Positions 8,604 through 43,029 of a stretch of DNA of 45,259 nucleotides are shown one piece after another (within the stretch, counting starts at the first letter, position 1; the number at the start of each line of letters is the position of its first letter). The position numbers and the translations under genes are program-made. The notes under the pieces were generated by a model. The model saw only the letters and a list, made by a program, of their open reading frames with translations. It searched no databases and was not told the origin of the DNA. Source of the DNA: a virus. Location of the stretch: positions 1 through 45,259 of IMG/VR virus record IMGVR_UViG_3300005563_000011; one strand, 5' to 3'.

Positions 8604-8789
8604 GTGCACGAACGAACGCGAAAGCTGCGCCAAATCATGGCGCAGCATCGTCTAAACACGCATGACGTGGCGGGCATCTTGGGCTGCAGCGAAACCACCG
8701 TGCGCATCTGGCGGTGCAAGCATCCCGCTCGGATCATCCCGGCGAACACGCTGCGCCTGCTGGAACTGGAAGTGCAGGTGCGTGCGTGA
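8604..8789 (+). CDS. Small helix-turn-helix protein (Cro-like)
   Basis: The GTG at 8604 has AAGGGG 7 bases upstream. The 61-aa product holds a classic HTH: RLNTHDVAGILGCSETTVRI at about residues 16-35, preceded by a basic helix. The size fits a Cro-like repressor or a small replication initiator. It lies just before the primase gene, whose GTG overlaps its stop, and downstream of the candidate operators at 8511-8537, so autoregulation or competition with the 5653-6039 regulator is plausible. Confidence 0.8.
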   Translation: MHERTRKLRQIMAQHRLNTHDVAGILGCSETTVRIWRCKHPARIIPANTLRLLELEVQVRA

Positions 8790-11125
8790 CCGCAGCCGCC
8801 CGCCACGATGACCTGACGATTGAAACCATCGAGTCGGCCTTGTTCGCAATCGACGCGGACTGTTCCCGCGAGAAGTGGGCGCGCATCGGCATGGCCCTGA
8901 AGTCCGAACTGGGCGAGGGCGGCTTTGCGCTGTTCGATGCGTGGAGCAAGAGCGCGACACGCGGCTATGACGCCAAGGAATGCGCTTCCACCTGGAAGTC
9001 CATCCGCGACGGCGGCGGCGTCAACATCGGCACGCTGATCTGGGAAGCGCAGCAACGCGGCTGGCAATTCGACACCGACCGGCAGACGCTGGACGCGGAC
9101 GCCATCGAAGCCCGCCGCCGCGAGCGCGAGGCCGAACGCAAGGACGCCGAAGCCGCCACGCGCCAGCGCCAGGGCGAGGCCGCCAAGCTGGCGAACCTGA
9201 CCTGGGAGGCATCGGCGCCCGCCGGCGACGGCCACCCGTACCTGCAGGACAAGGGCGTGCGCGCCCACGGCCTGGGCGTCGGCCAGTGGCCGCTGGTGAA
9301 CGATGCTGGCGAAGTGTTCCGCCATCTGCCCGACGCGCTGCTGATCCCGATTGCGGACGCGCGCAACGGCAAGGTGATCAGCCTGCAGGGCATCCTGCTG
9401 GACGCGGACGGCGGCATTCAGAAACGCTACCTGAAGAACGGCCGCAAGCGCGGCGGCTTCCACATGATCGGCACGCCACCGGCCGCCGGCGCACCGCTGG
9501 CGTTCTGCGAAGGGTACGCCACCGGCGCCACCATCCACGAGCTGACCGGCTGGTGCGTCATCGTCACGTTCGACGCGCCGAACCTGCCGGTGGTGGCCGA
9601 GGCTATGCGCGAGCAATTCCCGCAGGCCGCGTTCATCATCGCCGCGGACAATGACGCCTGGACCACCAGGCCGGACGGCTCGCCGTACAATCCCGGCCTG
9701 GACTATGCCCAGCGCGCCGCCGACGCAACGCGCGGGTTCCTGCTGGCGCCGCGGTTCGCGGACACCGCCGGCGAGCCGACCGACTGGAACGACCTGGCCA
9801 AGCTGGAAGGCGAGGCCGCTTGCCGCGCGCAGCTGCTGGCCAACCCGGTGACCGGCGGCAAGCCCGACACCAGCGCGGCCGATCTGCCGGCGACGAAGCC
9901 CGCGAACGACAACGTGGACTATTTCACGCCGCTGCCGGACGTGGGCGGCAAGGGCAAGCCGCTGGCGACCATTGAAAACCTGGCCGAGATAATCGACCGG
10001 CTGGGCGTGACGGTGCGTTACAACATGATCGCCAAGGACACCGAAATCCTGATCCCCGGCGAACAGTACCTGGACGACACGAAGCGCGGCGCTGCCCTCG
10101 CGCGGATCAAGTCGCAATGCATCCGGTTCGGCATGCCGGTGGAGCCGCTGGGCGAATACCTGCTGTATCTGTCTGACCAGCGGCCGTTCAACCCGGTGGC
10201 GCAGTGGATCACGGCGCGCCCGTGGGATGGCACGTCCCGGTTCCAGGCGCTGATGGACACGGTGCAGACGCGGCCCGACTTTGACCGCACGCTGTTTGCG
10301 CTGCTGCTGCGCCGCTGGCTGATTTCGGCCGTGGCCGCCGCCTGCCAGCCGCGCGGGTTCTGGTCCAAGGGCGTGCTGGTGTTCCAGGGCGAGCAGTCCG
10401 AAGGCAAGACCACGTGGTTTCGCCACCTGGTGCCCGAAGACCTGCGCGAACTGATCAAAGTGGACGCCATGGTGGACCCGGCGAACAAGGACAGCGTGAT
10501 TTCCGCCGTGTCGCACTGGCTGGTGGAAATCGGGGAACTGGACGGCACGCTGCGCAAAGCCGACATCGCGCGCCTGAAGGGTTTTATTTCGCAGGACGTT
10601 GACCTGTTCCGCCGGCCCTATGCGCGCACGGAAGAGAAATTCCAGCGCCGCACGGTGTTCTTCGCGTCCGTCAATCCCGAACAGTTCCTGGCCGACGACA
10701 CCGGGAACGTGCGCTGGTGGACGATCCCGGTCACCGGCCTGGTGCTGGAACACGGCATCGATATGCAGCAGCTGTGGGCCGAAGTCTTCACCTGGTACGA
10801 GGCCGGCGAAAAGTGGTGGCTGGACCGCGCCGAGGAACAGCGGCTGGAAGCCCGCAACGCGGATCACGCGCAGGCCGATCCGGTGGAAGAAATGATCCTG
10901 TCCCGCTGGGGCAACTGGGTGGACTACCACCTGCGCAAGCAGATGACCGCCACCCAGGTGCTGCTGGCCATCGGCTACGACAAGCCGACGCGGCCCCAGC
11001 AGACCAGCGCCGCGGCTGCGCTTACCAAGCTGTTCGGCAAGCCGAAGCGGACGGGTTCCGGCCGGTACTATGACGTGCCGGACCCGCCGACCGACAACCA
11101 CGTGGACGATGACCGTCCGTTTTGA
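8786..11125 (+). CDS. Replication protein: PriCT-2, Toprim-like and VapE/DUF927-type helicase domains
   Basis: I start at the GTG at 8786 (VTAAARHDDLTIETIE), which overlaps the previous stop; an upstream ATG in this frame lies inside the HTH gene. The 779-aa protein has a PriCT-2 domain (about 14-90, with WARIGMALKSELGEGGFALF), a Toprim-like region (about 200-345, with AFCEGYATGA near 237 and AADNDAW near 285), and a VapE/virulence-associated E superfamily 3-like ATPase at 430-760 with Walker A FQGEQSEGKTTWF (about 532-544). It would prime and unwind DNA at the phage origin. Its size and order match phage primase-helicases. Confidence 0.88.
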   Translation: MTAAARHDDLTIETIESALFAIDADCSREKWARIGMALKSELGEGGFALFDAWSKSATRGYDAKECASTWKSIRDGGGVNIGTLIWEAQQRGWQFDTDRQTLDADAIEARRREREAERKDAEAATRQRQGEAAKLANLTWEASAPAGDGHPYLQDKGVRAHGLGVGQWPLVNDAGEVFRHLPDALLIPIADARNGKVISLQGILLDADGGIQKRYLKNGRKRGGFHMIGTPPAAGAPLAFCEGYATGATIHELTGWCVIVTFDAPNLPVVAEAMREQFPQAAFIIAADNDAWTTRPDGSPYNPGLDYAQRAADATRGFLLAPRFADTAGEPTDWNDLAKLEGEAACRAQLLANPVTGGKPDTSAADLPATKPANDNVDYFTPLPDVGGKGKPLATIENLAEIIDRLGVTVRYNMIAKDTEILIPGEQYLDDTKRGAALARIKSQCIRFGMPVEPLGEYLLYLSDQRPFNPVAQWITARPWDGTSRFQALMDTVQTRPDFDRTLFALLLRRWLISAVAAACQPRGFWSKGVLVFQGEQSEGKTTWFRHLVPEDLRELIKVDAMVDPANKDSVISAVSHWLVEIGELDGTLRKADIARLKGFISQDVDLFRRPYARTEEKFQRRTVFFASVNPEQFLADDTGNVRWWTIPVTGLVLEHGIDMQQLWAEVFTWYEAGEKWWLDRAEEQRLEARNADHAQADPVEEMILSRWGNWVDYHLRKQMTATQVLLAIGYDKPTRPQQTSAAAALTKLFGKPKRTGSGRYYDVPDPPTDNHVDDDRPF

Positions 11126-11140
11126 CGAAGGGGAAATTGC

Positions 11141-11944
11141 ATGCGCCTAGTGATTTTGGAGTCGCCCTACGCCGGCGACGTGGAACGGAACGTGGCCTAT
11201 GCCCGCGCCTGCATGGCCGACTGCCTGCGCCGCGGCGAGGCGCCGATTGCCAGCCACCTGCTTTACACCCAGCCGGGCGTGCTGGACGACAACGCGCCGG
11301 ACGAACGGCGCCTGGGCATTGACGCCGGGCTGGCGTGGGCGGTGTGGGCTGACGCCGCGGTGTTCTATGTGGACCTGGGCGCGTCACCCGGCATGCTGGA
11401 CGCCGTGGAGCGCCACAAAGCCAACGGGGTGCCGATAGAGGTCCGCGAGCTGGGCGGCGAGTGGGTGACGTTCGCCGGCGTTGCGCTGCATGCGGCGCCA
11501 GCGCGCCCCGCTGACGCGCCCCGCCGCTGGTGGCCTATCGACACGCGTAAGCTGGCGCCCACCGGACACGCCTGGGGCTGCGGCTGGCACGTGGACCAGC
11601 ACCCGCACGAATGCACGTGCGGCGCGATCAGCGAAGCGGACGTGCTGCGGCGCCAGCTGGGCGCGCCGAAAGCGCACGCGCAGTTCAAGCGGCGCGGGGT
11701 GAGGGCACCAGGGGAGCCAACCTTCGAAGACACGCTGCTGCGCGCGCTGGACTGGAATGCGCCCGCCGCTGCTTGGTCCTGGTGCACCATCACCGAGGCA
11801 TTGGCGCGCGCTGGGCTGCCGGTAACAACCGGAAGCCGTAACGTGGCGATGCGGATGTGGCGAAAGGCTAGCGCACCCGCCGCCCGTCAAGCGAAGCCGA
11901 CCCGCGTTTTCTGCCCGCCGGCCGCGCCACGCGCCAGCGCCTAG
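11141..11944 (+). CDS. Nucleoside 2-deoxyribosyltransferase-like (DUF4406/DUF7768-like) protein with Cys/His C-terminal domain
   Basis: Residues 1-112 (MRLVILESPYAGDVERNVAY, then SHLLYTQPGVLDD, and the helix with DAGLAWAVWADAAVFYVDLG) resemble the Rossmann-like nucleoside deoxyribosyltransferase/DUF4406 superfamily common in phages. The pattern SPY near the N-terminus and a polar strand for substrate binding are visible. Residues 140-267 are unusual: a GCGWHVDQHPHECTCGAIS cluster suggests a metal-binding module followed by a basic helical tail. It is the last early gene before a strong terminator. Nucleotide salvage or modification is inferred; the C-terminal half is unexplained. Confidence 0.7.
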   Translation: MRLVILESPYAGDVERNVAYARACMADCLRRGEAPIASHLLYTQPGVLDDNAPDERRLGIDAGLAWAVWADAAVFYVDLGASPGMLDAVERHKANGVPIEVRELGGEWVTFAGVALHAAPARPADAPRRWWPIDTRKLAPTGHAWGCGWHVDQHPHECTCGAISEADVLRRQLGAPKAHAQFKRRGVRAPGEPTFEDTLLRALDWNAPAAAWSWCTITEALARAGLPVTTGSRNVAMRMWRKASAPAARQAKPTRVFCPPAAPRASA

Positions 11945-11977
11945 CGGCCACGCACCCCACAACACCAGTAAGGAACA

Positions 11978-12005
11978 GCCCGCCGTTCACACCGGCGGGC
12001 TTTTT
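11978..12005 (+). terminator. Strong rho-independent terminator after the early genes
   Basis: GCCCGCCG (11978-11985) pairs with CGGCGGGC (11993-12000) around a 7-base loop, followed by TTTTT. It ends the rightward early transcript 34 bp after the stop at 11944. Confidence 0.93.
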
Positions 12006-12336
12006 CGTGAATGGGCCAGTGACGGAGTGACGGACTAGTGACGGACTTTCCGGCAGTCAGTCACTGCCGCAAACCCGCAGAAATCCTAGGGTGCAATGGG
12101 TTTTAGTGACGGAGTGACTGACTATTTAGCAAAATGGAGGGGAGTTATAGAGAGAGGGGGACACGCAAAACGCCCGCGCTATGGGAATTTGCGAAAAGTC
12201 AGTCACTAGCGGCCGGATTTTGCGCGCAAACCCGCAGAAATCCGCGGGTTTCGGCAGTGACTGACTGTCCGTCATAGTCCGTCACTGCTTCCGTCATCGG
12301 CCGGCCTGAAGTATAGCTTGCGCGCACCGGCAAGGT
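12006..12336. other. Iteron-rich non-coding region: candidate replication origin or late control array
   Basis: No gene is visible in these 330 bp. GTGACGGA occurs directly at 12019, 12027, 12038 and 12106. Inverted TCCGTCA copies occur at 12268, 12278 and 12290. A hairpin CGGCAGT/ACTGCCG spans 12051-12069. AAACCCGCAGAAATCC occurs twice (12071-12086 and 12228-12243), the second forming a 24-bp hairpin with GCGGGTTT (12244-12251). AGTCAGTCACT at 12197 and GTGACTGACTG at 12257 repeat the theme. The two halves are rough mirror images around a purine-rich core (about 12132-12164). It follows the primase cluster and a terminator, so an origin is the leading idea. Confidence 0.7.
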
Positions 12337-12375
12337 TTGCGATGGCCGTTGCTATTCAATGTGACGGGGGCGAAC

Positions 12376-12828
12376 GTGACATTACCTGACAGCGTACAAG
12401 AGATAGCGGACGTGATCGGCCGTGATGCGGCGCTATACCTGATCGGCCAGCTGCCCACGTGCATTTCGGGCATCGACGGCGCGAAGTCATACGGGCGCGA
12501 GGGTTCCACCAGCAAGCGGTCCACCCGCGTCATCCTGTATGTGCCGAAGCGGCTGACGCCCGACCACCGGCTGGTTGAAATCCTGGGCTGGGATCGCGCC
12601 CGCAAGCTAGCCGACTGGTTCGGCGGTTCGATCCTGCAGCCGGCGAACTGCAACGCGATTTACAAGCGGTTTCGTGATGGCGAAATCAAGCGCCGGCTGA
12701 AGGAAGGCGCGAGCAACGGGCAGCTGGCATCGGTGTTCGGCATGTCGCGCGAGTCCATCCGATTGCTGCGAATGCAAATCCCACAAGAGGAACTGAAGGG
12801 CGCGAACGACAACACTGCGCAGGACTAG
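12376..12828 (+). CDS. Mor/C-like transcription activator of late genes
   Basis: The GTG at 12376 has GGGGGC 5-6 bases upstream and is preferred over earlier in-frame starts. The 150-aa product matches the Mor/C activator family of Mu-like phages: an N-terminal helical dimerisation part (LPDSVQEIADVIGRDAALYL), a beta strand ending in TRVILYVPKR, the second strand region WFGGSILQP, and a C-terminal HTH (NGQLASVFGMSRESIRLLR). These proteins activate middle or late promoters and act as dimers. It sits directly before holin and lysozyme, as a late activator should. The C-terminal tail contains repeat copy 2 translated as QIPQEE. Confidence 0.82.
   Translation: MTLPDSVQEIADVIGRDAALYLIGQLPTCISGIDGAKSYGREGSTSKRSTRVILYVPKRLTPDHRLVEILGWDRARKLADWFGGSILQPANCNAIYKRFRDGEIKRRLKEGASNGQLASVFGMSRESIRLLRMQIPQEELKGANDNTAQD
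12775..12792 (+). repeat. 18-bp boundary repeat, copy 2 (inside the activator gene)
   Basis: The exact 18-mer lies in the last codons of the Mor-like gene, read as Gln-Ile-Pro-Gln-Glu-Glu, after the HTH and 36 bp before the stop. The lysis cassette begins 58 bp downstream. Confidence 0.97.
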
Positions 12829-41347: not shown

Positions 41348-41791
41348 ATGGCCACCAGATCGCGCGCGCTCGCGGCAATAGCAGCAATCACCGCCGACCG
41401 CTTGGAGCGAGAACGGCAGCTGAAGCCGCCCCCTGAAGTCCCGCCGCCCGCACCGCCCGCACCGCGCGCACCGCCCAGTCCCGACACGCCACTGACCGAA
41501 GCCCAGTTGGCGGACATGGCGGTGCCATTCGAAGTCACGTGCGGCGTCTATTTCCTCTTGCGCGGCAGGCGCGTGGTCTATGTCGGCCAGTCCATCAACA
41601 TCCTAGCCAGGATCGCCACGCACGCCGCCAGCGAAGACAAGCGCGGGCGCTGGGATGCCTGGGCCTACGTTCCATGCGAGGCGAGGCGCCTTGACGCCGT
41701 GGAGGGCGAATACATCCGCCGGTTCAGGCCGCCGCTGAACAAGGTGGGCAAGCTATCAGCCAATGACAACCGGAGGGTGCGCGCGTGCTGA
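41348..41791 (+). CDS. GIY-YIG nuclease-domain protein
   Basis: The 147-aa protein has a long Pro/Ala-rich N-terminal linker (PPPEVPPPAPPAPRAPPSP) followed at about residue 66 by GVYFLLRGRRVVYVGQSINI, a GIY-YIG-type core with the catalytic Arg in LARIATHAAS and Glu in VEGEYIRRFRPPLN. The end carries an ANDN string. It lies between attP and integrase and overlaps the integrase start by 7 bp. Free-standing GIY-YIG proteins are often homing or repair nucleases. Whether this one is mobile or part of the integration module is unclear. Confidence 0.8.
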   Translation: MATRSRALAAIAAITADRLERERQLKPPPEVPPPAPPAPRAPPSPDTPLTEAQLADMAVPFEVTCGVYFLLRGRRVVYVGQSINILARIATHAASEDKRGRWDAWAYVPCEARRLDAVEGEYIRRFRPPLNKVGKLSANDNRRVRAC

Positions 41792-43029
41792 CTGATACCG
41801 AAATCAAGAAGGCCATCCGCGAGGCGACTGCCGAACGCGTTCTGAACGACCAGGCGGGCGGACGCGGGGCGGGTAGCCTGCGCCTTCGCATCCGGCCGAG
41901 CGATGAAGGCGTGACCGCCACGTGGTTTGCGTTCTGGAAAACGGGCGGCGTGCGCAGCACCAGGACACTGGGGCGCTATCCCGGCATGACCGCCGCCCAG
42001 GCGCGGGCGGCGTACCATAACGAAATCGTGCCCCAGCTGCTGGCTGGGAAGAACCCCGCTGCACCGAAGGCGCCTTGTGGCCGGCGCGCGACCGTGGGGG
42101 AATTGTTCCGCGCCTACGTGGCCGACCTGAAAACTAAGGGCCGCGCCAGCTGGCCGGAAGTCGAGCGCGCGCTATTGCACGCCAAGGACAACGCCGCCGA
42201 CGCCCTGGGGCGCAACCGGCTTGCTGGCGAGATTGAGGCCGCGGACGTTGCCGGATACCTGGCCAAGTTCTACCGGCGCGGTTCGCGCAGCGCCGCCGAC
42301 CACCAGCGGGCCTATGTGTCCGCGGCGTTCGGCTGGGCGGTCAAGGCGGCGAACGACTACACCGTGGACGACCGCCAGGACTGGGGCATGAAGTTCAACC
42401 CGGCCGCCCTGGTGCGGCGAGATTACGAAGCAGTCCAAGCGCGCGACCGCAACCTGTCGGCCGACGAACTGCGCGTGCTGTGGCACGCCGCGGCGCCGGG
42501 CGAAAACGGGTTCACGCTGGAAACGGCCGCGGCGATCCGGCTGCTGATCGGCACCGGCCAGCGCGTGCAGGAAGTGCTGCGGCTGGACGGCGCCGAACTG
42601 GACCTGGCCGCCGCGCTGTGGCGCATGCCGCGCGAGAAAACGAAACTACGCCTGCGCCCGCACGTGGTGCCGCTGCCGCGCCAGGTGCTGCCGGTCCTGG
42701 CCGACCTGGCGGCTGCACACGGCACCGGGCCGCTGTTCCCCGGCCGCGCCGGGCGCGAGCGCATGGACCACCGCAGCGTCAAGCAGGCGATTGACCGCTG
42801 GCTGGCGCTGCCGGGCGTGACGGCCGCGCAGTTCCAGACGCGCGATCTGCGACGCACCTGGAAGTCCCGCACGGGCGAAATCGGCATTGGCCGCGACATG
42901 CGCGACTTGATCCAGCAGCACGCCGGGCAGGACGCCGGCACCGTCCACTATGACCGGGCCGACTACCTGCCGCAGATGCGCGCGGCCATGGCGAAGTGGG
43001 AAGCCTGGCTGGACGGCGTGCTGGCCTAG
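41785..43029 (+). CDS. int: Tyrosine-family integrase
   Basis: The GTG at 41785 starts a 414-aa P4/lambda-type integrase: an N-terminal arm-binding domain (SLRLRIRPSDEGVTATWFAF), a core-binding SAM-like domain (about 103-200) and the catalytic domain. Catalytic residues are R260 (GTGQRVQEVL), R356 (TRDLRRTW), H379 (LIQQHAGQ) and Y389 (TVHYDRADY). At the usual HxxR position the His is replaced by Arg353. It recombines attP with a tRNA gene. The stop is followed after 2 bp by repeat copy 7. Confidence 0.93.
   Translation: MLTDTEIKKAIREATAERVLNDQAGGRGAGSLRLRIRPSDEGVTATWFAFWKTGGVRSTRTLGRYPGMTAAQARAAYHNEIVPQLLAGKNPAAPKAPCGRRATVGELFRAYVADLKTKGRASWPEVERALLHAKDNAADALGRNRLAGEIEAADVAGYLAKFYRRGSRSAADHQRAYVSAAFGWAVKAANDYTVDDRQDWGMKFNPAALVRRDYEAVQARDRNLSADELRVLWHAAAPGENGFTLETAAAIRLLIGTGQRVQEVLRLDGAELDLAAALWRMPREKTKLRLRPHVVPLPRQVLPVLADLAAAHGTGPLFPGRAGRERMDHRSVKQAIDRWLALPGVTAAQFQTRDLRRTWKSRTGEIGIGRDMRDLIQQHAGQDAGTVHYDRADYLPQMRAAMAKWEAWLDGVLA

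Follow-up and report, generated by a model that had tools for sequence, protein, structure and literature searches.

A mirror-image iteron array before the late-activator gene is a probable replication origin in a phage with Jilinvirus relatives

Results

A mirror-image iteron array between the early operon and the late-activator gene

The DNA analyzed here, referred to as the window, is an IMG/VR virus of 45,259 bases. Its genes include those for primase-helicase, terminase, portal, major head, tail sheath, tape measure and integrase. The virus looks like a temperate myovirus, because primase-helicase, terminase, head and tail sheath genes are present together with an integrase gene. The integrase gene (41785-43029, PHROG 1) suggests a temperate phage; several close relatives have been described as lytic. 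The features in and around the gap at 12.0-12.3 kb are as follows.

8786-11125, plus strand: PriCT-2/TOPRIM primase fused to a VapE-like helicase, with a C-terminal winged helix (Pfam, PHROG)
10991-11080, plus strand: codons of the recognition helix and wing hairpin (AlphaFold2 model; covariation peak at residues 741-770)
11141-11944, plus strand: DUF7768 gene, between the putative initiator and the candidate origin (Pfam DUF7768)
11977-12001, plus strand: intrinsic terminator closing the early operon (9-bp stem and T-run)
12020-12026, plus strand: outer left iteron TGACGGA (this and all other iterons by sequence match)
12028-12034, plus strand: outer left iteron TGACGGA
12039-12045, plus strand: outer left iteron TGACGGA
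12057-12063, minus strand: outer left iteron TGACTGA, inverted
12071-12086, plus strand: AAACCCGCAGAAATCC element, between outer and inner iterons (sequence match)
12107-12113, plus strand: inner left iteron TGACGGA
12115-12121, plus strand: inner left iteron TGACTGA
12122-12198, no strand: purine-rich core, presumed melting site (GC content)
12199-12205, minus strand: inner right iteron TGACTGA
12228-12251, plus strand: second AAACCCGCAGAAATCC copy (12228-12243) in a perfect hairpin with 8-bp arms (12228-12235 / 12244-12251)
12258-12264, plus strand: outer right iteron TGACTGA
12268-12274, minus strand: outer right iteron TGACGGA
12278-12284, minus strand: outer right iteron TGACGGA
12290-12296, minus strand: outer right iteron TGACGGA
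12376-12828, plus strand: Mor-like late transcriptional activator gene (PHROG 836)

The sequence TGACKGA is found 11 times within 277 bp (12020-12296; 6 copies on the plus and 5 on the minus strand) and 7 times in the remaining 45 kb, and dinucleotide-shuffled versions of the gap contain 0.08 copies on average and 2 at most (1000 shuffles). Of the longer form AGTGACKGA, the gap has 9 copies and the rest of the window none. All the repeat elements that an earlier note on this DNA had described were found where it had placed them, including four copies of GTGACGGA on the plus strand (12019, 12027, 12038 and 12106), three copies of TCCGTCA (12268, 12278 and 12290), CAGTCAGTCACTG-type elements on both sides of the gap, and AAACCCGCAGAAATCC with its hairpin. 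Since the CAGTCAGTCACTG elements are TGACKGA with T at its variable position, a single iteron suffices to describe the array. The outer clusters mirror each other, reading + + + - inward from either end, and the inner iterons are directed into the core, with two on its left side and one on its right. The core itself is purine-rich with 49% GC (43% at its 60-bp minimum), compared with 67% in the genome. The two clusters are mirror images around a purine-rich core; the earlier note had called the halves rough inverted copies. None of 95 control windows from the same genome matched the mirror score of the gap, and the array is the only one of its kind in the window. A DNA similarity search of the gap against phage records returned only short terminator-like matches, and the GC skew of the window gave no clear origin signal.

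The gap had been described as lying behind the primase-helicase gene and a strong terminator. The terminator does precede it; the primase gene is not adjacent, with the DUF7768 gene in between. On the other side, alignment indicates that the GTG at 12376 fits the relatives better as the start of the activator than the TTG at 12337. A protein-only search for the activator among viral contigs gave no match.

The candidate initiator

The 8786-11125 protein matches the Pfam families PriCT_2, Toprim_3 and VapE-like_dom and belongs to PHROG 2249 (DNA primase). Its top fold match in the PDB is SaPI5 PriRep1 on dsDNA (7pds), which is also matched by profile. AlphaFold2 confidently predicts a C-terminal winged helix (pLDDT ~91), in which residues 736-750 form the recognition helix and residues 754-765 the wing hairpin. 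We have also observed variation of this gene among the relatives, numbered here with the prefix L. Serratia phage MQ-4 (L013, 1326-4019) has the PriCT-2/TOPRIM half and the activator of the group, but a C-terminal half with no Pfam match replaces VapE, and its iteron, GGTAAC, is unique in the set. The helicase halves of L109 (5314-7611) and L007 (579-2903) are 84% identical, whereas their N-terminal primase halves are unrelated (15%); these identities indicate a domain exchange within the primase-helicase. In Salmonella phage PT1 (L021, 2474-4778), the primase-helicase is annotated as two open frames.

The layout is kept among relatives while the iteron words change

The relatives are Jilinvirus/Iiscvirinae phages and their neighbors, among them ECO1230-10, ep3, ECOO78, Bas97, Arya, KA2-1, PPpW-3, Persinger, Mica, Mano, Alexa and FoX. 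In about 25 related phages and prophages, the mirror layout is found immediately before the same late-activator gene with other iteron words, and in most of the phages named the 300-450 bp before the activator contain mirror iterons around an AT- or purine-rich core. The words include GGTGACC, GGGACWA, GGGTACA, GTGTA and GTGCA, and further GGTGAC(C/T)A, GTGACCA, GGTGACAA, GGGAC(A/T)A, AGTGCAACC and GGTAAC. The earlier note had let its reading depend on whether relatives with the same replication genes carry the repeats: the exact repeats are absent from them, but they retain the layout, built from other words.

The mirror score reaches P ≤ 0.02 in 27 of 69 non-identical gaps, and the underlying scan for exact mirror k-mers overlooks arrays that are degenerate, as in PPpW-3, Mano, FoX and phages of the Stenotrophomonas type. 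Arrays are weak in PPpW-3, Mano, L137 and L138, and no array was found by exact k-mers in the Xanthomonas FoX phages. About 25 of the 69 gaps are of the Stenotrophomonas type, with sparse GTGAGGA iterons before the activator gene (57 copies across 10 kb of gap sequence, compared with 20 across 361 kb outside the gaps); the prophages of this type are L029-L036, L058 and L084-L108.

The gaps of many relatives also contain IHF-consensus sites (14 exact matches, 0.8 expected), which sit between the outer and inner iterons, usually inverted on the left and direct on the right. Such mirror-placed sites can be seen in L015, L017, L025, L071, L076, L079, L095, L122 and others. The window gap has no IHF-consensus site at ≤1 mismatch, and the AAACCCGCAGAAATCC elements occupy that place. 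In L025, L071, L075, L111, L117 and others, a motif resembling TATATGGAAA/TATAGGAAA closes the core before the right inner iterons; the top strand has 8 copies of TATATGGAAA, compared with 0.7 expected, and the bottom strand has none.

Many relatives that lack the activator have the array directly 3′ of the primase-helicase gene. The same position is seen in L064, the closest relative of the window found by primase identity, and in L072 the primase, the array and the activator are adjacent. The simplest history would be an ancestral block of primase-helicase, origin and activator, into which early genes were later inserted between initiator and origin.

The wing of the primase-helicase co-varies with the iterons

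We compared gap similarity with protein similarity across the relatives. When gaps were compared by k-mers without iteron classes, the best primase stretch was residues 741-770, with a partial rho of 0.31 once overall identity was taken into account; the partial correlation for Mor was -0.06. Nearest-neighbor prediction of the iteron class reached 0.85 from residues 741-765; Mor or the primase half gave 0.52, and shuffling gave 0.22. Among pairs matched for helicase identity (76 vs 74%), the wings are 73% identical where the iterons are the same and 54% identical where they differ, while the N half (45 vs 44%) and Mor (53 vs 50%) hardly differ; because the classes in this and the nearest-neighbor test were judged by eye and the pairs are not statistically independent, P values should be taken as guides only.

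Individual pairs show the same pattern. ECO1230-10 and ECOO78 share 95% identity in Mor, 96% in the small protein before the primase, 100% in the holin and 84% in primase residues 1-700, but 53% in the last 40 residues, and both their wings and their iterons differ (GGGACTA in ECO1230-10; GGTGACCA in ECOO78 and also in Bas97). The Bas97 gap preceding the activator gene is located at about 38.4-38.8 kb of PQ850606. Mica and L109 are 84% identical in the helicase and 53% in the wing, and again the iterons differ. Two relatives found after the motif had been noticed also fit, L056 with the wing KSGSRRLF and a TGGGAC array and L064 with the wing KRTAAR and a TGACACC array; L129 is an exception to the rule.

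Iteron class tracks neither the Mor-like activator, nor the primase half, nor the helicase core. On sequence comparison, the predicted wing at about residues 741-765 is the only tested protein piece that clearly co-varies with it, and this supports the earlier suggestion that the 8786-11125 protein is the initiator. Two other candidate readers were rejected. Mor-like activators that are 95% identical are found with different iterons and others that are 58% identical with the same iterons, and the small protein before the primase, where it could be compared, is nearly unchanged between ECO1230-10 and ECOO78 despite their different iterons.

Discussion

These results are best explained by 12018-12297 being the replication origin of the phage, probably read by the 8786-11125 primase-helicase through its C-terminal winged helix (probability about 0.87). 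By analogy with known systems, the primase-helicase would bind the iterons with this domain, and initiator oligomers on both arms would be brought to the core and melt it. Two hexamers could then load in opposite directions and start bidirectional replication, which the host polymerase would take over. The specificity for the iterons is probably set by the wing loop and the neighboring recognition helix, and recognition by these two elements could explain why a change of wing goes with a change of iteron word. In this group of phages, the origin would be placed between the early-operon terminator and the late-activator gene. The earlier note had offered either an origin or a control region; the origin is now strongly supported, and a control region of the activator is possible but unproven.

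Because the putative origin lies at the early/late boundary, its right arm may let the initiator influence late transcription, and a coupling of replication to late transcription through the late-activator promoter is a speculative extension. One form of it, which refines rather than excludes the origin reading and which we put forward tentatively, is that the initiator on the right arm represses or times the activator promoter. The promoter-proximal iterons are kept at the -35 region in Jilinviruses, and the placement at the early/late boundary persists despite the genes inserted between primase and origin. However, there is no recognizable promoter in the window, and the placement could be a linkage inherited from a primase-origin-activator ancestor such as L072.

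It is improbable that the gap is solely an operator of the late-activator gene, bound by the Mor-like or the 8604-8789 HTH protein and with no origin function. Most relatives that possess the activator gene do have the array directly before it and after a terminator, and four Jilinvirus-type phages have a -35-like TGGTCA, 17 bp from TACAAT, that overlaps their right-most iteron. Yet the iterons do not change with Mor or with the small gene preceding the primase, although sites of a Mor/C-type operator should follow the activator across relatives. Moreover, relatives without the activator retain the array behind the primase-helicase gene, and a sigma-70 promoter search of the window gap gave no match. 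Least probable is that the gap acts as a long RNA or single-strand hairpin (an attenuator, processing site or single-strand origin), for its strong folding (z of -9 for DNA and -8 for RNA) is expected of any mirror-image iteron array, an Rfam search of the gap found no family, and long-range pairing ranges from 5 to 55 pairs (z -1.2 to -9.5) among relatives while the iteron-wing match is kept. The giant hairpin was likewise rejected as a functional object, its register not being conserved among relatives.

The origins of phage-inducible chromosomal islands (PICIs) have two sets of iterons around an AT-rich region 3′ of the rep gene and are functional in plasmids (PMC6092414), and the C-terminal domains of SaPI Rep and Cch2 bind iterons (PMC7581432). 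At the putative SCCmec origin, Cch2 is likewise a helicase of the D5 type, and its C-terminal domain on its own binds 5-nt iterons (AAGTG) that lie downstream of its gene, but there are only three iterons, all direct, with no mirror arrangement described, and the polymerase-primase is separate (PMC7581432). The SaPI/PICI systems and the window both have two sets of short iterons flanking a core, which is AT-rich in SaPI/PICI and purine-rich, not extremely AT-rich, in the window; both have a VapE/D5-like self-loading helicase fused to or paired with a primase; and in both the iteron words differ between elements. The reading of iterons by the C-terminal domain in SaPI/PICI has its putative counterpart in the wing-iteron covariation. 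On the other hand, the candidate origin belongs to a complete phage with full virion genes and not to a satellite, and the primase part is TOPRIM, whereas that of SaPI5 is AEP. The SaPI/PICI origin lies immediately 3′ of the pri-rep gene, and the window origin would lie ~0.9 kb downstream, behind the DUF7768 gene; the SaPI/PICI position is matched in L064 and the activator-less relatives.

P4 alpha is also a primase-helicase fusion whose C-terminal winged helix reads iterons. Compared by description, it has an AEP-type primase and separate ori and crr, whereas the window has TOPRIM_3/PriCT_2 and a single array. Phage origins of the lambda type share iterons beside an AT-rich melting region, but the lambda iterons are direct repeats inside gene O, and the O protein recruits the host helicase and is not one itself; the window array is intergenic and mirrored. 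As judged from sequence, the gap is probably an origin of the PICI type that is carried by full phages and has moved to the early/late boundary, because the array is directly behind the primase-helicase gene in L064 and the activator-less relatives, as in SaPI/PICI. A wider reading, conceivable but short of probable, is that Iiscvirinae and their relatives in general have PICI-type origins with wing-coded words, joint exchange of wing and iterons, and right-arm coupling of replication to late transcription. The code would pair KSGS-R wings with GGGAC, RT...R wings with TGAC, and SNG wings with GTA or GCA words.

The literature searched, which covered few subscription papers, gave no earlier account of an origin for these phages, and the passages retrieved from the Bas97 and Murka papers describe none. 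The one origin that has been proposed, for the Jilinvirus-like prophage KIRK, is of the lambda-like kind and located within a gene. The replication of this group, including E. coli lab-collection phage Bas97 (HeidiAbel), appears to have been undescribed so far, and our results give a concrete candidate origin, initiator and specificity determinant for it. They also contradict the claim that the layout of two iteron sets is confined to satellite islands and would link satellite and phage replicons. The pairing of iterons with helicases may be readable from sequence, and natural pairs that differ mainly in wing and iteron would make the choice of origin by self-loading helicases directly testable.
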